Of a stretch of 20,786 nt of DNA, positions 7,770 through 15,393 are shown in pieces (the stretch's first letter is position 1; the number at the start of each line of letters is the position of its first letter). This stretch comes from a virus. The stretch is from positions 1-20,786 of IMG/VR virus record IMGVR_UViG_3300033993_002170. One strand, written 5' to 3'. A model generated the notes under the pieces. That model had not been told where the DNA came from and made no database searches. It worked only from the letters and a program-made list of their open reading frames with translations. A program made the position numbers and the translations under genes.

Positions 7770-9802
7770 GTGACGAGGGCGTTTTGCGGCAGGCGGTCGC
7801 GGATTTCTTTGATGAGGGACTGCAAGCTGGCCTCGCTGGCGAGGGCGACTTGCGCCGCCTGCGATTTACCGCCTTCGGCGTTACGCGCTGATTCCTCTTC
7901 GCGCAGACGTTCTCCGGGTGTTTTTTGCTGGTCGCGGACGAAGCGGTCGAAGTCCTCACGTTTGCCGAACGGGTTTTCTTGGCGGAATCGCTGCTGAAGC
8001 TCGCCCATGTTTTTGAGCGGACTGTCTGCTCCAAACAGAGCATCGGTGGCCGAGCGGCGGGTCAGTAAATCCTGCGCTCGCCTTTCGGCGTCACGCTCGG
8101 CGCGGAGTTGAGTGTTGGCGGCAGAAGAAAAGAATCTGCCGTCCATGAGTTCCGACACGCGCTCGGTGCGGCGGTTTTTGTCGGCCTCGATGCGGAAAAG
8201 GTCGGCGCGGGCGCGGGCATCGGTTTCGGCGGCTTTGCGTAATGCGTCGAGGGCGGTGGTGGGTTTGGGGGTGGAGGTGCCGCCGCCGCTGCTGCCACGC
8301 GCCGCTCCTGTGGGTGTCGTGGCCGGAGGCTCGTATGTTTCTGCATTTGCAAAGCGCCTGGCTTGCTCGTCCGTTGCGCCATCTTTAATGCGGCGATTGT
8401 ATTCTGCCATCCACTCTGCTTTAGCCTTGGCCTCGTCTGTCCCAAAAGCCATCGCTTCTGCGTGGCGCAGTTCGGCTTCGATGCCCGCTTGCTGCTTGGC
8501 GATTTCCTGATCTTTAAGGCGAAGGCGATCTTTGTAGGCGGCGTTCACATCGCGCGCCGCCGCTTCCATGTCGCCCTCGTATTTGATGCCAGCTTCTAAA
8601 AGGTCTTTGAACTCGGTGAGATCGGCGGCGAGTGCATCGTTTCCTGCGGCTTGTGCTTCTTTGATTTGCAGATTGACGCGGGCAATTTCCTGCATCAAAG
8701 CCTTCTTTTCTTCGGTGGCCTGTTTGTCGCCTTTGGTCGCTTTGGCCGTTTCTTCGGTTTCTGCGGTAAGTTTTTGCTGCGCCGACAATGTGGCTTGTTT
8801 TGCTTCGGCGCGCTCACGCTCAATCTTTGCAACCTCACGAAGCACAACCAATTCCATCTCGGCCTCTTGCCGCATGGTCATATTGCTGGGTGTTGTTTGT
8901 GGCAGCTGGCCGCGATTACGAAGGTTGGTTAGTGCTTGCTCTTTATCAGCCTCGCTTTGGCGTTCCTCTGGGGTTTGCCCGCCAGCGCGAAGGCTTTCGC
9001 CAAAAGTAAACGGAGCAGCAAGTGCCCGCATTGCCATTTCGGCTGCACTTGCATTTTTTGCTACGTCCAAAAATCTTTCTGCGAGCGATGTAAAAAAAAC
9101 AATAACTGGAGCGGTAATGCTTGCCTGTGCCTGTAGCGATACCTTTTCAAGTGCGTCGTTGGCATCAGCAATTTTCTTGACCGCTTCGTCACTGACCACC
9201 GAGGCGTCGGCCATCGCAGACCTTAATCCGTCCACGTTGCTGATGAGCGGAATCAAATCCGCCGCGCGCATACCAATCAGTTTGAGGATTTGGTTTTGTT
9301 TGCTCGCATCCCCATTTGCCTCCTTAAACGCCTCGGCCACGGTCAACAGCTTTTTATCCAAGGATGCCCGCTCAAACTCACGGGCATTGATCCCTGCAAG
9401 CTCAAAGGTTTCGGCGGCGGCGCCGCCTTCGTTGATGGCCTGCGTAGCGGCCACGCCCGCCTTGGTCATGGCGCGGGCGACCATATCTATGTCGCTGCCA
9501 GCCAATTTTGCGGCCTCTCCTACGCGCTGGATGGATTCGGCGCTGGTTCCAAAGCGAACCGCAAGATCATTAACCCGGTCGAAATGCTCCATGACGCGGC
9601 GGATCTCCGCAATAATGATCGTCCCACTAAAGGCCACGCCGACCGAGGCCATGACGCTTTGGAGCCTTCCGAAGCCAGCGGAAATGTTGTTTGTGTTCGC
9701 CTCGATCTGTTGCGCCGCCTGCTTAATTTTGCGCGGCATCGCCTCAACGGCCTTGTTGTATTCCGTTGTATCAGCGCCAAACTTGAAAACAGATCCGACC
9801 AT
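7766..9802 (-). CDS. Tape measure protein, 678 aa
   Basis: Long helical protein in the place expected for a tape measure, after gpG/gpGT. The N-terminus (MVGSVFKFGADTTEYNKAVEAM) matches the usual opening of phage tape measures. Hydrophobic segments occur near 50-66 (VMASVGVAFSGTIIIA) and 229-243 (TAPVIVFFTSLAERF). Residues about 300-600 are charged coiled coil rich in Glu, Lys, Ala and Arg. At about 1.5 angstroms per residue, the known relation for this family, 678 residues implies a tail near 100 nm. ATG at 9802 has TTGACA 16 nt upstream, and this TTGACA contains the TGA stop of the preceding gene. Confidence 0.9.
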   Translation of the reverse strand: MVGSVFKFGADTTEYNKAVEAMPRKIKQAAQQIEANTNNISAGFGRLQSVMASVGVAFSGTIIIAEIRRVMEHFDRVNDLAVRFGTSAESIQRVGEAAKLAGSDIDMVARAMTKAGVAATQAINEGGAAAETFELAGINAREFERASLDKKLLTVAEAFKEANGDASKQNQILKLIGMRAADLIPLISNVDGLRSAMADASVVSDEAVKKIADANDALEKVSLQAQASITAPVIVFFTSLAERFLDVAKNASAAEMAMRALAAPFTFGESLRAGGQTPEERQSEADKEQALTNLRNRGQLPQTTPSNMTMRQEAEMELVVLREVAKIERERAEAKQATLSAQQKLTAETEETAKATKGDKQATEEKKALMQEIARVNLQIKEAQAAGNDALAADLTEFKDLLEAGIKYEGDMEAAARDVNAAYKDRLRLKDQEIAKQQAGIEAELRHAEAMAFGTDEAKAKAEWMAEYNRRIKDGATDEQARRFANAETYEPPATTPTGAARGSSGGGTSTPKPTTALDALRKAAETDARARADLFRIEADKNRRTERVSELMDGRFFSSAANTQLRAERDAERRAQDLLTRRSATDALFGADSPLKNMGELQQRFRQENPFGKREDFDRFVRDQQKTPGERLREEESARNAEGGKSQAAQVALASEASLQSLIKEIRDRLPQNALVT

Positions 9803-9818
9803 TTTGCCCTTTCTTTAG

Positions 9819-9824
9819 TGTCAA
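9819..9824 (-). promoter_or_regulatory. TTGACA start-associated motif (tape measure gene)
   Basis: TTGACA 16 nt before the ATG at 9802. The TGA in its middle is the stop codon of the upstream gene, so motif and stop coincide. Confidence 0.65.
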
Positions 9825-10594
9825 GCCGCCTTCATCAAGTCGGGGTATCGGCGGGAAATGATGTTGACCTTGCTCTTGGCGTTTTTTTTCATCGCGCTAT
9901 TGAAGAACGTGACCCGGCTGCGGATAGCAGATCGCAGCGCCTTGTCGCCCCCGGCTTCTACCACGGAGAGCCGCCCGAAGTTCTGGCCTTGAATTACGAA
10001 ATTCATGCCGCGCAGCGTGCCGTTGGTTGATGCCTTGACAGCAAAGGGCTTTTTGTTTTGGGCGTTGCGAACTTGCGACGGCGCGTTGACCGGGATTCCG
10101 AGGATATTTGCGATTTGCAGCCAGTGTTTTGCCGAAACGCCCGCGCGCGTAATCTTGTCTTTAAGCGACTTGGCGCGGCGCTGGCGCAGTTCGTTCCATA
10201 GCCAGTTCGGGTGCTTGTGCCTGCCCGCCCCGCCCGCCTTGTGTTTGCCGCCGACAAATGGCGGGAGCGCGTATTTCAGCTTGCCGTTTGTGGACTGCCC
10301 ACGGCGCTGGCCCGCCTGCCGCGCCAGCCGCTCTCTGACATTTGGGTTGTTGCTGCGCGTCTCTGGGCCTCCGTAGGCAATGTTCTGGCTGGTCATCCTT
10401 TGGTTAAAAAAGTTTCGCATGACCTTTTGCGGCGTTGCTTTTTTGGTTCTGTCTATCGTGATTTCCAGCACCTTGCCCACCTCATGCCGCAGCACAGTTT
10501 CAAACTGCTGCCCGGTGATTTTCATAAGATCGCGGCAAGCTGCGCTGAAAGCGTTGAATTGCTTTCCGCGCACCGCCTTGAGTCTTATCGCCAT
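9821..10594 (-). CDS. Basic tail-completion/connector-like protein, 257 aa
   Basis: I chose the ATG at 10594 (MAIRLKAVRGKQFNAFSAA) over the GTG at 10606. It lies two bases after the gpGT stop and has CTGACA 14 nt upstream. The product is strongly basic, with a Lys/Arg-rich middle (GRHKHPNWLWNELRQRRAKSLKDK) and a basic end (MKKNAKSKVN). The N-terminal helices resemble those of tail-completion or minor tail proteins of the gpZ/HK97 gp10 type, which act at the neck or tail. Its place between gpGT and the tape measure is unusual for such proteins. A minor tail protein is the safest call. Confidence 0.55.
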   Translation of the reverse strand: MAIRLKAVRGKQFNAFSAACRDLMKITGQQFETVLRHEVGKVLEITIDRTKKATPQKVMRNFFNQRMTSQNIAYGGPETRSNNPNVRERLARQAGQRRGQSTNGKLKYALPPFVGGKHKAGGAGRHKHPNWLWNELRQRRAKSLKDKITRAGVSAKHWLQIANILGIPVNAPSQVRNAQNKKPFAVKASTNGTLRGMNFVIQGQNFGRLSVVEAGGDKALRSAIRSRVTFFNSAMKKNAKSKVNIISRRYPDLMKAA

Positions 10595-11295: not shown

Positions 11296-11869
11296 GCGCG
11301 ACGTGGAAGATGTGGCTCAATTAGAGGCTCGCAAGCGTGGCGATAGACGAAAAGACGGTTTCGTATTTTGGGGCTATCGGACAGAAGTGCTTAAAAGCGG
11401 ATTCAGCAAACGTCGAGAAGTTTGGGTGAGCCCAGCAAGCTATTCAAAGACGATGGCAAATGATCGCCAATGGCGATTGGCAAATAAGGCGCGTCTAAAA
11501 AGCTATACCAAAGAATACGAAAGGTGCAGAAGAGCAAATGATCCGCTATTTCGATTGGTCAAGACCACAAGAACCCGAATTGCAATGGTGCTATCTGGTC
11601 ACAAATCAGTTAAATCGGCGCACCTTGTTGGATGCTCGGCGGAAAAGCTAAAGCGGCATTTAGAGGAACAATTTGTAAGCGGGATGAATTGGGAGAATTA
11701 TGGAAGTTATTGGCACGCCGACCACATAATTCCTTTGGCTTGGTTTGATTTAAGCGACCCAAATCAGCAGCGATGGGCGTTTCATTACACCAATTTGCAG
11801 CCACTGACCAAAGAAGATAACCTTCGCAAAAACAGCAAAATACAATGGCGCGGGACAACCGCTACATAA
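11294..11869 (+). CDS. HNH endonuclease, 191 aa, opposite strand
   Basis: The only gene clearly on the plus strand. I start at ATG 11294 because the longer open frame to 10973 is antisense shadow of the gpG gene. Residues 60-100 form a charged helical region (TKEYERCRRANDPLF). LVGCSAEKLKRHLEEQF (111-127) and MNWENYGSYW (131-140) precede the catalytic part: ADHIIPL (142-148), FDLSDPNQQ, HYTNLQPL (164-171) and N177. This is a standard free-standing phage HNH nuclease with His and Asn positions intact. Such genes behave as homing endonucleases or morons. The DNA looks more AT-rich than neighbouring genes, which suggests transfer. It converges on and overlaps the 133-aa gene by 8 bp. Confidence 0.88.
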   Translation: MRDVEDVAQLEARKRGDRRKDGFVFWGYRTEVLKSGFSKRREVWVSPASYSKTMANDRQWRLANKARLKSYTKEYERCRRANDPLFRLVKTTRTRIAMVLSGHKSVKSAHLVGCSAEKLKRHLEEQFVSGMNWENYGSYWHADHIIPLAWFDLSDPNQQRWAFHYTNLQPLTKEDNLRKNSKIQWRGTTAT

Positions 11870-13310: not shown

Positions 13311-13612
13311 TTGTTGTCGGGGCTTTGCAGGGTGAGGTCGATCGTGGCGGTGTCGGTGTCTATTCCGGTAATGCGATAGCGGCGGTCTTGAAATTTCACG
13401 ATGCCGCCGAGGCGGAAGGTTGGTGCGCCTGCTTTAAGAACGGTGGCCGTTAGCCCCCTCGCCGCTTCAAAGCCGCCCTCGCCCAAGGAGTTGCCATAGG
13501 TTTCCTCGCCCACCACGGCCAGATAGGCGCGCTCGCGGTATTCGATCTGGTCGCGGATCGTGCCGACGGCCTCGGTGCTGGCTGCGGTGTAAGCCTGTGC
13601 AAATTGGCTCAT
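13307..13612 (-). CDS. Head-tail connector protein, 101 aa
   Basis: Begins MSQFAQAYTAASTEAVGTI. The second half is a beta barrel-like segment (FRLGGIVKFQDRRYRITGIDTDTATIDLTL). Small proteins of this size and shape sit after the capsid gene in siphophages and complete the head or join head and tail (gpFII- or stopper-like). The start overlaps the glycosyltransferase stop (ATGA) and has CTGACA 13 nt upstream. The exact connector class is not determined. Confidence 0.55.
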   Translation of the reverse strand: MSQFAQAYTAASTEAVGTIRDQIEYRERAYLAVVGEETYGNSLGEGGFEAARGLTATVLKAGAPTFRLGGIVKFQDRRYRITGIDTDTATIDLTLQSPDNK

Positions 13613-15393
13613 GCGGTGGCCGTGGTGTCAGCCTTGGGCGCAAGGTCGGGATTGCGGCGGCGGAAGATTTGCTCGCCGAGCTTGTAGGCTTCGTCCGAGT
13701 TCTCCATCGCGTAGGTATCGTCGGACGGCACGGCGGGATTCCAAAACGGATGCTCGTGCTTGAAGACGATTTCGGACGGGATAAGCAGGCCGCTTTTGCC
13801 AGCGCGCATGGAAAACTCGGTGTCGCTGAAAATGCCCGGATAGTCAGGAGCCAGGATGTTTTGCGCGCCGTAGCCGAGTCGCTTGAACGTGGGGCGCGTA
13901 ACGCAAAACGTGACCATGAGATCGTCGTTGCGGTAGCCGTCTTTGATTTGCAGGACGGCGGGCTGGCGTGCGTCCACCTTGGCGCGCAAGGCTTCCTCAA
14001 TCGCCAAATCCCAGTGGAGCGGCGGGAAGACATCATCCTGGGCGGTGATGATGATCTGCCCGGTGGCCGCGTTGGTGGCCGCGTTGTAGTTTTGGACGGC
14101 GGTTCCGCCCGGACGCTCAAGGTTGCCAGCGGGTGAAAGCGCGTGGCGGAAGCGCGAGAGCAGGCCGACCGATTCCTCGTCATCGGAAGAAAAGCCGAAG
14201 ATGTATTCGATGCGCTCCGGGTTGGCGGCGGCATCGAGCCAGCGTTTGCGCGTCATGGCCGCTTGATGGGCGCGGGCGCGGGTCGGGTGGCAAACGCTGA
14301 TGCTGTATTTGTGGCCCTTGATGCGGGCGCGTTCGATCTCGTCAGCTTTGTCTTGCTGCCCGGCCAAGCGGAGCCATTGCGTCCACAAGGCTTCCCCCGC
14401 CCATCCGTAGAGGCCGTCGCGGTGCGTCCACGGTTTATCCACCGGGCGCGGCAGGGCCATCATGGCGCGGATATAGGCTTCGGCGCTCACCATGTCGCCG
14501 AGGTCGAGGTGCATGGCGCCGAGCAGGGCCAAGGCTTCGCGGCGGTTGGGCTGCGTTTTGTAGGCGCTATGGAGCGCCGTCATCATCGCCTTGTATTCGG
14601 GCGAGTCGGTTTGCAGGATTTCGGGGCGGGCCAGTTCGCAGATGTTGAGGCACAGTTCGTAGCGTTCGGTTGGTTTAAGTTCGGGATGAGCCAGCGCCTT
14701 CTTGGCTAACTCCATCGCTTCGGCCTTGCGCCCGTGGCCGACATACTCGCCGTGCAAGTGGTAGATTTCTGAGAGCGTGCGCTCGGCTTCGGGGATCGAC
14801 TCCAAGATGGTCAGATTGCGGTTGCTGCCCTGCTTGGGCTCATCGTCGGGCAAATGGATGACGGTCGGCTCGTCGCACTTGGCGATCCGCGCATCGGCGC
14901 CAAGTTGGAAATTCTCGTGGATGCGGTTCACCCACTTGCCTTTGTCGCGGCGCACGAGGCGCTCGCGGATGTTGTGGGCGATGCCGCGCCCGGCGACATT
15001 GTGAAACAGGGCAAAGGCGTCGAAGTTCTCGCCGTGCTTTTCAAGGAGTTCGTGCAGGGCGGGCGCGAAGTTCGGCCCTGGCGTATCGTCCGCGTCCACC
15101 CACAGCGCCCAAGGTTTGCTGGCGAGGTCGAAGGATTGCTGCCGCGCGGCCCCGAAATCATCGACGTGCGGCCATTCGTTGCCGGGGGCGTTGGCATAGA
15201 CATCGTAGGTCGCCCCGTGTTTCTGGCAGACCTCGGCAATCTTGATGCTCTTGGCTTCGGCCCCGGTGGCGTGGACTACCACCATCTCGCTGACGGCGGG
15301 GGCAAATTGAGTCAAGCAACGGTCAAGCCGTTTGGGTTCGTTGCCGACGATGACGCAAAGCGCGATCTGCTCGCGCGGGCTTTGTTTCTCCAT
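13609..15393 (-). CDS. Two-domain glycosyltransferase in the head module, 594 aa
   Basis: The N-terminal domain (about 10-185) looks like a GT2 (GT-A) transferase: CVIVGNEP at 13-20, a nucleotide-sugar DxD-type VDADD at 99-103 and a later KWVNRIHENF. A helical region (about 200-355) has TPR-like repeats (GRKAEAMELAKKALAHPELKP). A second transferase-like domain (about 363-555) has SVCHPTRA, a QDDV motif at 452-455 and DTEFSMRAG at 524-532. It sits between the capsid gene and the connector genes. It may glycosylate a virion protein or host surface sugars; the acceptor is unknown. ATG 15393 has TTGACA 17 nt upstream and a terminator just before that, so it may be expressed separately from the capsid gene. 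Confidence 0.8.
   Translation of the reverse strand: MEKQSPREQIALCVIVGNEPKRLDRCLTQFAPAVSEMVVVHATGAEAKSIKIAEVCQKHGATYDVYANAPGNEWPHVDDFGAARQQSFDLASKPWALWVDADDTPGPNFAPALHELLEKHGENFDAFALFHNVAGRGIAHNIRERLVRRDKGKWVNRIHENFQLGADARIAKCDEPTVIHLPDDEPKQGSNRNLTILESIPEAERTLSEIYHLHGEYVGHGRKAEAMELAKKALAHPELKPTERYELCLNICELARPEILQTDSPEYKAMMTALHSAYKTQPNRREALALLGAMHLDLGDMVSAEAYIRAMMALPRPVDKPWTHRDGLYGWAGEALWTQWLRLAGQQDKADEIERARIKGHKYSISVCHPTRARAHQAAMTRKRWLDAAANPERIEYIFGFSSDDEESVGLLSRFRHALSPAGNLERPGGTAVQNYNAATNAATGQIIITAQDDVFPPLHWDLAIEEALRAKVDARQPAVLQIKDGYRNDDLMVTFCVTRPTFKRLGYGAQNILAPDYPGIFSDTEFSMRAGKSGLLIPSEIVFKHEHPFWNPAVPSDDTYAMENSDEAYKLGEQIFRRRNPDLAPKADTTATA
13626..13631 (-). promoter_or_regulatory. CTGACA variant motif (connector gene)
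   Basis: CTGACA 13 nt before the ATG at 13612, inside the final codons of the glycosyltransferase gene. Confidence 0.35.

Follow-up and report, generated by a model that had tools for sequence, protein, structure and literature searches.

The window analysed here, a 20,786-base virus fragment from IMG/VR, carries a gene for a two-domain glycosyltransferase (GT) behind its major capsid protein (MCP) gene, and these phages carry the GT as a constant component of the head module. It is probably a bifunctional, protein-directed enzyme for glycosylation of the capsid, in which the outer sugar can be exchanged; here we infer the protein acceptor, the capsid as its target, the sugars, their order and the biological role. 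The structural genes of the window all lie on the minus strand in a lambda-like order: terminase, portal, ClpP-like protease/scaffold, MCP, GT, connector and tail genes. The 594-residue reading frame that an earlier note had placed at 13609-15393 is real and lies on the same strand, with VDADD at residues 99-103 and QDDV at residues 452-455. Its stop codon and the start codon of the connector gene share the sequence ATGA; therefore, the two genes are probably translationally coupled. The features around the gene are as follows.

16369-15473 (-): major capsid protein, upstream of the GT (Phage_capsid_4, 5.5e-8; phrog_283, 8.6e-25)
15450-15423 (-): intrinsic terminator-like hairpin in the MCP-GT gap, 12 bp stem
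15416-15411 (-): TTGACA element of the GT, 17 nt before the ATG
15393-13609 (-): two-domain GT gene, ORF of 594 aa with Pfam and PHROG matches
14824..15393 (-): N-terminal GT-A domain, approximately residues 1-190 (DxD, 100-102; RIHEN, 157-161)
14314..14823 (-): TPR-like helical middle, approximately residues 191-360 (all-helical in the model; weak TPR_16)
13612..14313 (-): C-terminal GT-A domain, residues 361-594 (QDD, 452-454; DGYRND; SDTEF; HEHP)
13612-13307 (-): head-tail connector, downstream of the GT (Pfam Phage_attach, weak, 0.048)

Position of the glycosyltransferase gene in the head module

The gene had been described as an insertion that interrupts the head morphogenesis order. It does interrupt the order of lambda-type maps, but the arrangement is the normal one in this phage group, and synteny in the relatives contradicts an insertion. 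The close relatives all have the order MCP-GT-connector wherever the contig is long enough. In an MCP-led scan, where the loci were selected by MCP and not by GT (reach, MCPs at least approximately 52% identical to the query), 76 loci had a complete MCP; 74 of them carry a GT downstream, and the remaining two end too early. Wherever enough sequence lies downstream, the MCP gene is thus followed by the GT (74 of 74), directly or about one gene on, and 70 of the 74 GTs lie within 60-116 nt of the MCP. A recent insertion is therefore ruled out.

The same position was found at larger distances. A profile-led GT scan recovered relatives at 29-32% identity, with an MCP upstream in all 30 loci that have upstream sequence. 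A scan with a distant GT as the leader yielded at least 561 relatives, and the MCP was the upstream structural gene in 78 of 79 new loci. In the remaining locus, L129, the GT directly follows TerL in place of an MCP. These GT-led scans span two MCP families; among 40 loci sampled from the last scan, the upstream MCP was of the phrog_283/267 type in 38 and of the phrog_1005 type in two. The gene after the GT was a connector in 44/44 loci where one was recognised. In the relatives at approximately 30% identity with other capsid types, the place of the GT is unchanged, and additional glycosyltransferases and methyltransferases are present.

The intrinsic terminator that was reported in front of the gene is confirmed: the hairpin is kept in 31/31 loci examined, and in three of them a C-G pair has become G-C by a compensatory change. 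A terminator behind the MCP gene is a usual means of lowering the expression of the next gene, as established for T7; therefore, the GT needs no private promoter. The MCPs of the group with the window, L007, L018, L023 and L034 are 100% identical in amino acid sequence in several contigs, whereas other contigs with portals 98-99% identical have MCPs that are only approximately 75% identical. This difference indicates that capsid alleles have been exchanged by recombination.

Outside this group, the GT of the window had no protein match at 1e-5 among INPHARED phage records, and a plasmid search gave N-domain GTs only, mostly from Bacillales. Phage P8625, whose MCP is 28% identical to that of the window, has no annotated GT between the MCP and the following genes, and no GT match was found in P8625 and the actinobacteriophages sharing this MCP type (approximately 28% identity). 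A terminase search of genome contigs for the host gave two distant Vibrionaceae matches only (21% identity). The likeness to the P8625 MCP is a weak hint at a host among Verrucomicrobiota.

Domain structure and exchange of the C-terminal domain

The suggestion that two transferase domains surround a TPR-like middle agrees with the predicted structure. The AlphaFold2 (AF2) model of the full-length protein (17 sequences; pLDDT 80.5, pTM 0.56) consists of an alpha/beta, an all-helical and an alpha/beta part, and the C-domain alone was modelled with higher scores (27 diverse sequences; pLDDT 90.3, pTM 0.88). Pfam GT2 (PF00535) matches residues 79-127 (4.2e-8; 33.8 bits against a cut-off of 23.3), and with this score and a GT-A fold bearing a DxD motif the protein belongs to the GT2 family. 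PHROG profiles for a beta-1,4-GT and a GT match residues 9-342 (8.4e-15) and 364-569 (1.5e-4), respectively. The TPR signal is weak at the sequence level (TPR_16, 0.031; designed TPR chains in a profile search of the PDB, 0.09-0.5).

In Foldseek searches with the whole model, SunS/ThuS were the best matches (2e-11), and K4 chondroitin polymerase (K4CP; 4e-9, ranks 7-11) aligned over both domains. The C-domain matched the GT-A enzymes RmlT, WrtF, SpsA and TarS (3e-6 to 2e-5), with TarP also among its neighbours. A profile search against PDB sequences found GmaR (6.6e-9) and SunS (8e-5). Among solved structures, the N half is thus nearest to protein or peptide glycosyltransferases (GmaR, SunS/ThuS). 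Over the full length, the TM-scores, taken on the query, are low at 0.34-0.39, partly because the domain placement is uncertain. Both halves independently match GT-A structures and keep their motifs; therefore, the outcome that would have spoken against the earlier proposal, a single complete GT fold, was not obtained. The DxD and H-E motifs of the N-domain and the xDD, DGxRxD, (S/C)D and H-x-x-P motifs of the C-domain are kept in relatives at approximately 30% identity. These catalytic motifs and the confident C-domain model rule out a degenerate second domain. The dN/dS values against relatives (N half, 0.07-0.17; C half, 0.10-0.28) show that the GT is under purifying selection. The models thus support two complete GT-A folds around a TPR-like middle.

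This architecture combines features of several known enzymes. At the superfamily level, the GT of the window shares with the SunS/GmaR-like protein glycosyltransferases an N-terminal GT-A domain followed by a TPR-like helical region. The peptide S-glycosyltransferases SunS/ThuS, the best structural matches, likewise have a GT-A domain and a helical tail, but they have one GT domain, and the GT of the window scores far below the cut-off of the SunS equivalog TIGR04195 (17.2 of 350 bits). K4CP also has two GT-A domains in one chain; however, it makes a free polysaccharide, and it has no TPR middle between its GT domains. GmaR, the flagellin GT and anti-repressor of Listeria, is the best profile match and consists of a GT (6-103), a TPR region (165-350) and, as its third part, an anti-repressor (PMC3150276); in the GT of the window, a second GT-A domain takes the place of this C-terminal anti-repressor. 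FlmG of Caulobacter, a modular TPR-GT flagellin glycosyltransferase (PMC7591256), also unites a TPR part and a GT in one protein, but its single GT domain has a GT-B fold. By analogy with GmaR, SunS and FlmG, the N domain and the TPR region may glycosylate a protein.

In close relatives, the C-domain does not share the history of residues 1-355. The first part is 96% identical between L008 and L018 and the second part 60%, while L018 and L042 are 64% identical in the first part and 89% in the second; between the window and L022, the values are 95% and 50%. Four interchangeable C-domain types occur, and that of the window is type A. A GT-B-like gene follows types C and D in 15/15 loci with sequence there and types A and B in 0/24, the loci behind both counts being partly non-independent. 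Identical MCPs are paired with C-types A, B and C, so matching of the C-domain to the MCP allele is ruled out. Such pairing would fit a C-domain that recognises the first sugar instead of the protein; it is expected if the domain acts on that sugar and lends no support to a contact with the MCP.

Further sugar genes lie between the GT and the connector, where GT2 genes (28/32 loci) and GT-B-like genes occur. In an AT-rich group, this gap holds FkbM and Methyltransf_24 methyltransferases and two more glycosyltransferase-like proteins (assigned by eye, with no Pfam match). In the wide group, a Methyltransf_24 domain is fused to the C-terminus of the GT, and a separate GT2 follows. The GenBank podovirus ctKR88 has an MCP, a small ORF, a beta4-glucosyltransferase, further GTs and methyltransferases. 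Such gene content would be expected of a locus that builds a glycan through an invariable first step followed by variable ones. Behind the GT of L111 (9975-12520), GT-like, transketolase-like and zinc alcohol dehydrogenase-like genes were recognised by eye, as if this phage made its own sugar donor.

Proposed function and alternatives

In the proposed mechanism, the SunS/GmaR-like N domain would transfer a first sugar onto a virion protein, most likely the MCP, with the TPR middle as the acceptor-binding part, and the second GT-A domain would add a second sugar. The C-domain would act as a cassette, exchanged alone or together with the GT-B enzyme, and the extra GTs and methyltransferases of other lineages would elongate and cap the glycan. 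The inner linkage would thereby stay constant while the outer glycan changes, which might allow escape from capsid- or virion-binding factors or play a role in adsorption. Judged from gene position, the MCP is the likeliest acceptor because the MCP-GT pair never separates in the MCP-led scan and because the MCP is an abundant protein whose synthesis coincides with that of the GT.

The two genes could also be linked because both are expressed from the head operon, the acceptor being a tail or decoration protein. An enzyme that glycosylates another virion protein (decoration protein, connector or tail tube) and stands behind the MCP only for dosage and timing is rather unlikely. The overlap between the GT stop and the connector start would suit it, as would the mycobacteriophage enzymes, which are described as modifying both capsid and tail tube (PMC12363180, PMC12619734). 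However, the GT follows the MCP across different MCP families while the next gene varies, and the group of the window has no separate decoration gene there. Modification of host surface glycans, for serotype conversion or superinfection exclusion, is improbable: the C-domain neighbours TarS, TarP and RmlT decorate teichoic acids, and WrtF is also among the neighbours, but neither a GtrA/GtrB-like membrane partner nor an integrase was recognised in the vicinity of the GT, the gene is embedded in the late head operon and linked to the MCP in 74/74 loci, and the N domain most resembles protein GTs.

Phage GTs often glycosylate DNA bases. For the GT of the window this activity is hardly credible, since no base-hydroxylating or hypermodification genes were recognised in the window, and the TPR region, the peptide-GT relatives and the late head location all argue against it. 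If the gene were a moron or a selfish insertion, carried along with the head genes but without a function in the virion, this would account for the terminator in front, the modular C-domain and the extra DNA methyltransferase gene that L010 has at this place; such a reading is nevertheless very improbable, because the GT is present at every related MCP locus with room for it, its dN/dS is 0.07-0.28, and its catalytic motifs are kept at approximately 30% identity. The earlier idea, which linked the enzyme to capsid or tail proteins in preference to DNA modification or serotype conversion, is supported, and it is gene position that points to the capsid over the tail.

The proposed glycosylation of the virion has a known counterpart. 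Virion glycosylation in mycobacteriophages (Che8 gp110, Corndog gp38 and Myrna; Freeman et al. 2023, as reported in PMC12363180 and PMC12619734) involves, in those accounts, GTs encoded by tailed phages that act on the phages' own capsid and tail proteins, a role proposed here for the GT of the window. The GT of the window differs in that its two domains are fused, its place behind the MCP is fixed and its outer-sugar cassettes are swapped; the constant link with the capsid gene and the swapping of cassettes are what is new in this variant. We tentatively extend this, as a possibility that falls somewhat short of probable, to a large uncultivated phage group in which glycosylation of the capsid is a required step of head formation, encoded in the head operon, and cassette exchange behind an unchanging protein-glycosylating domain varies the capsid glycans in the manner of antigenic variation. 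Demonstrations of virion glycosylation by phages are few, and the modification is usually treated as an optional decoration. If our proposal is true, a glycosylation gene tied to one capsid family with no exception seen, and equipped with swappable sugar modules, would make capsid glycans a core, evolving trait of widespread environmental phages, which raises the testable question of what in the bacterium's world selects changing sugars on a phage shell.

The TTGACA element and other features of the window

The GT had been credited with its own TTGACA. The hexamer is present; however, it has no -10 box and is a start-codon element found throughout the phage, so that the notion of a private promoter does not hold. 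Across relatives, it stays 17-18 nt before the GT start while the flanks change. All ten sense-strand copies in the window lie 14-17 nt ahead of an ATG, at gene or internal starts.

371-366, 5817-5812, 9824-9819, 11235-11230, 12671-12666 (-): TTGACA copies
15416-15411, 16768-16763, 16888-16883, 17482-17477, 19297-19292 (-): remaining TTGACA copies

In close relatives, 165 of 203 distinct TTGACA sites are 14-17 nt before an ATG, against 10.5 expected; the hexamer is the most enriched of all 4096, and distinct antisense copies number only ten. Two further sets of these phages, with no overlap between the groups, likewise rank it first and at the same distance, and a Shine-Dalgarno (SD) hexamer does not lead the ranking. 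TTGACA as a promoter was rejected because logos of 152 aligned sites contain no -10 box at a fixed distance and copies also stand before operon-internal genes; a promoter that is compact and specific to the phage is a possible reading. We read the element as a start-codon-linked and probably translational signal, possibly a non-SD translation-start element that has not yet been described. In the open literature, we found no publication that treats the locus or start signals of the TTGACA kind. Some Verrucomicrobiota are SD-scarce (PMC10783764), which would fit a non-SD signal if the host were one of them.

In L010, a DNA methyltransferase-like gene with a DPPY motif (8740-9981) lies between the terminator and the GT and has its own TTGACA-N16-ATG. 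Two internal TTGACA-ATG pairs at 16888-16745 (-), within the ClpP-like protease gene of the window, suggest scaffold proteins made from internal starts, as with lambda Nu3. The 14-17 nt signal is absent from P8625 (L045), where four TTGACA boxes (5412, 10736, 15558 and 22406) stand exactly 30 nt before a start codon, three of them with a similar GTATCC/TATC...TGGATAC-like sequence behind; they look like promoters of nearly leaderless transcripts. Between two tail genes of the window, which are adjacent in L003 and L030, an opposite-strand reading frame (11381-11869, +) with the HNH-like motif HADHIIP has no Pfam match, is preceded by TTGACC-N16-TAAAAT and looks like a homing endonuclease gene.
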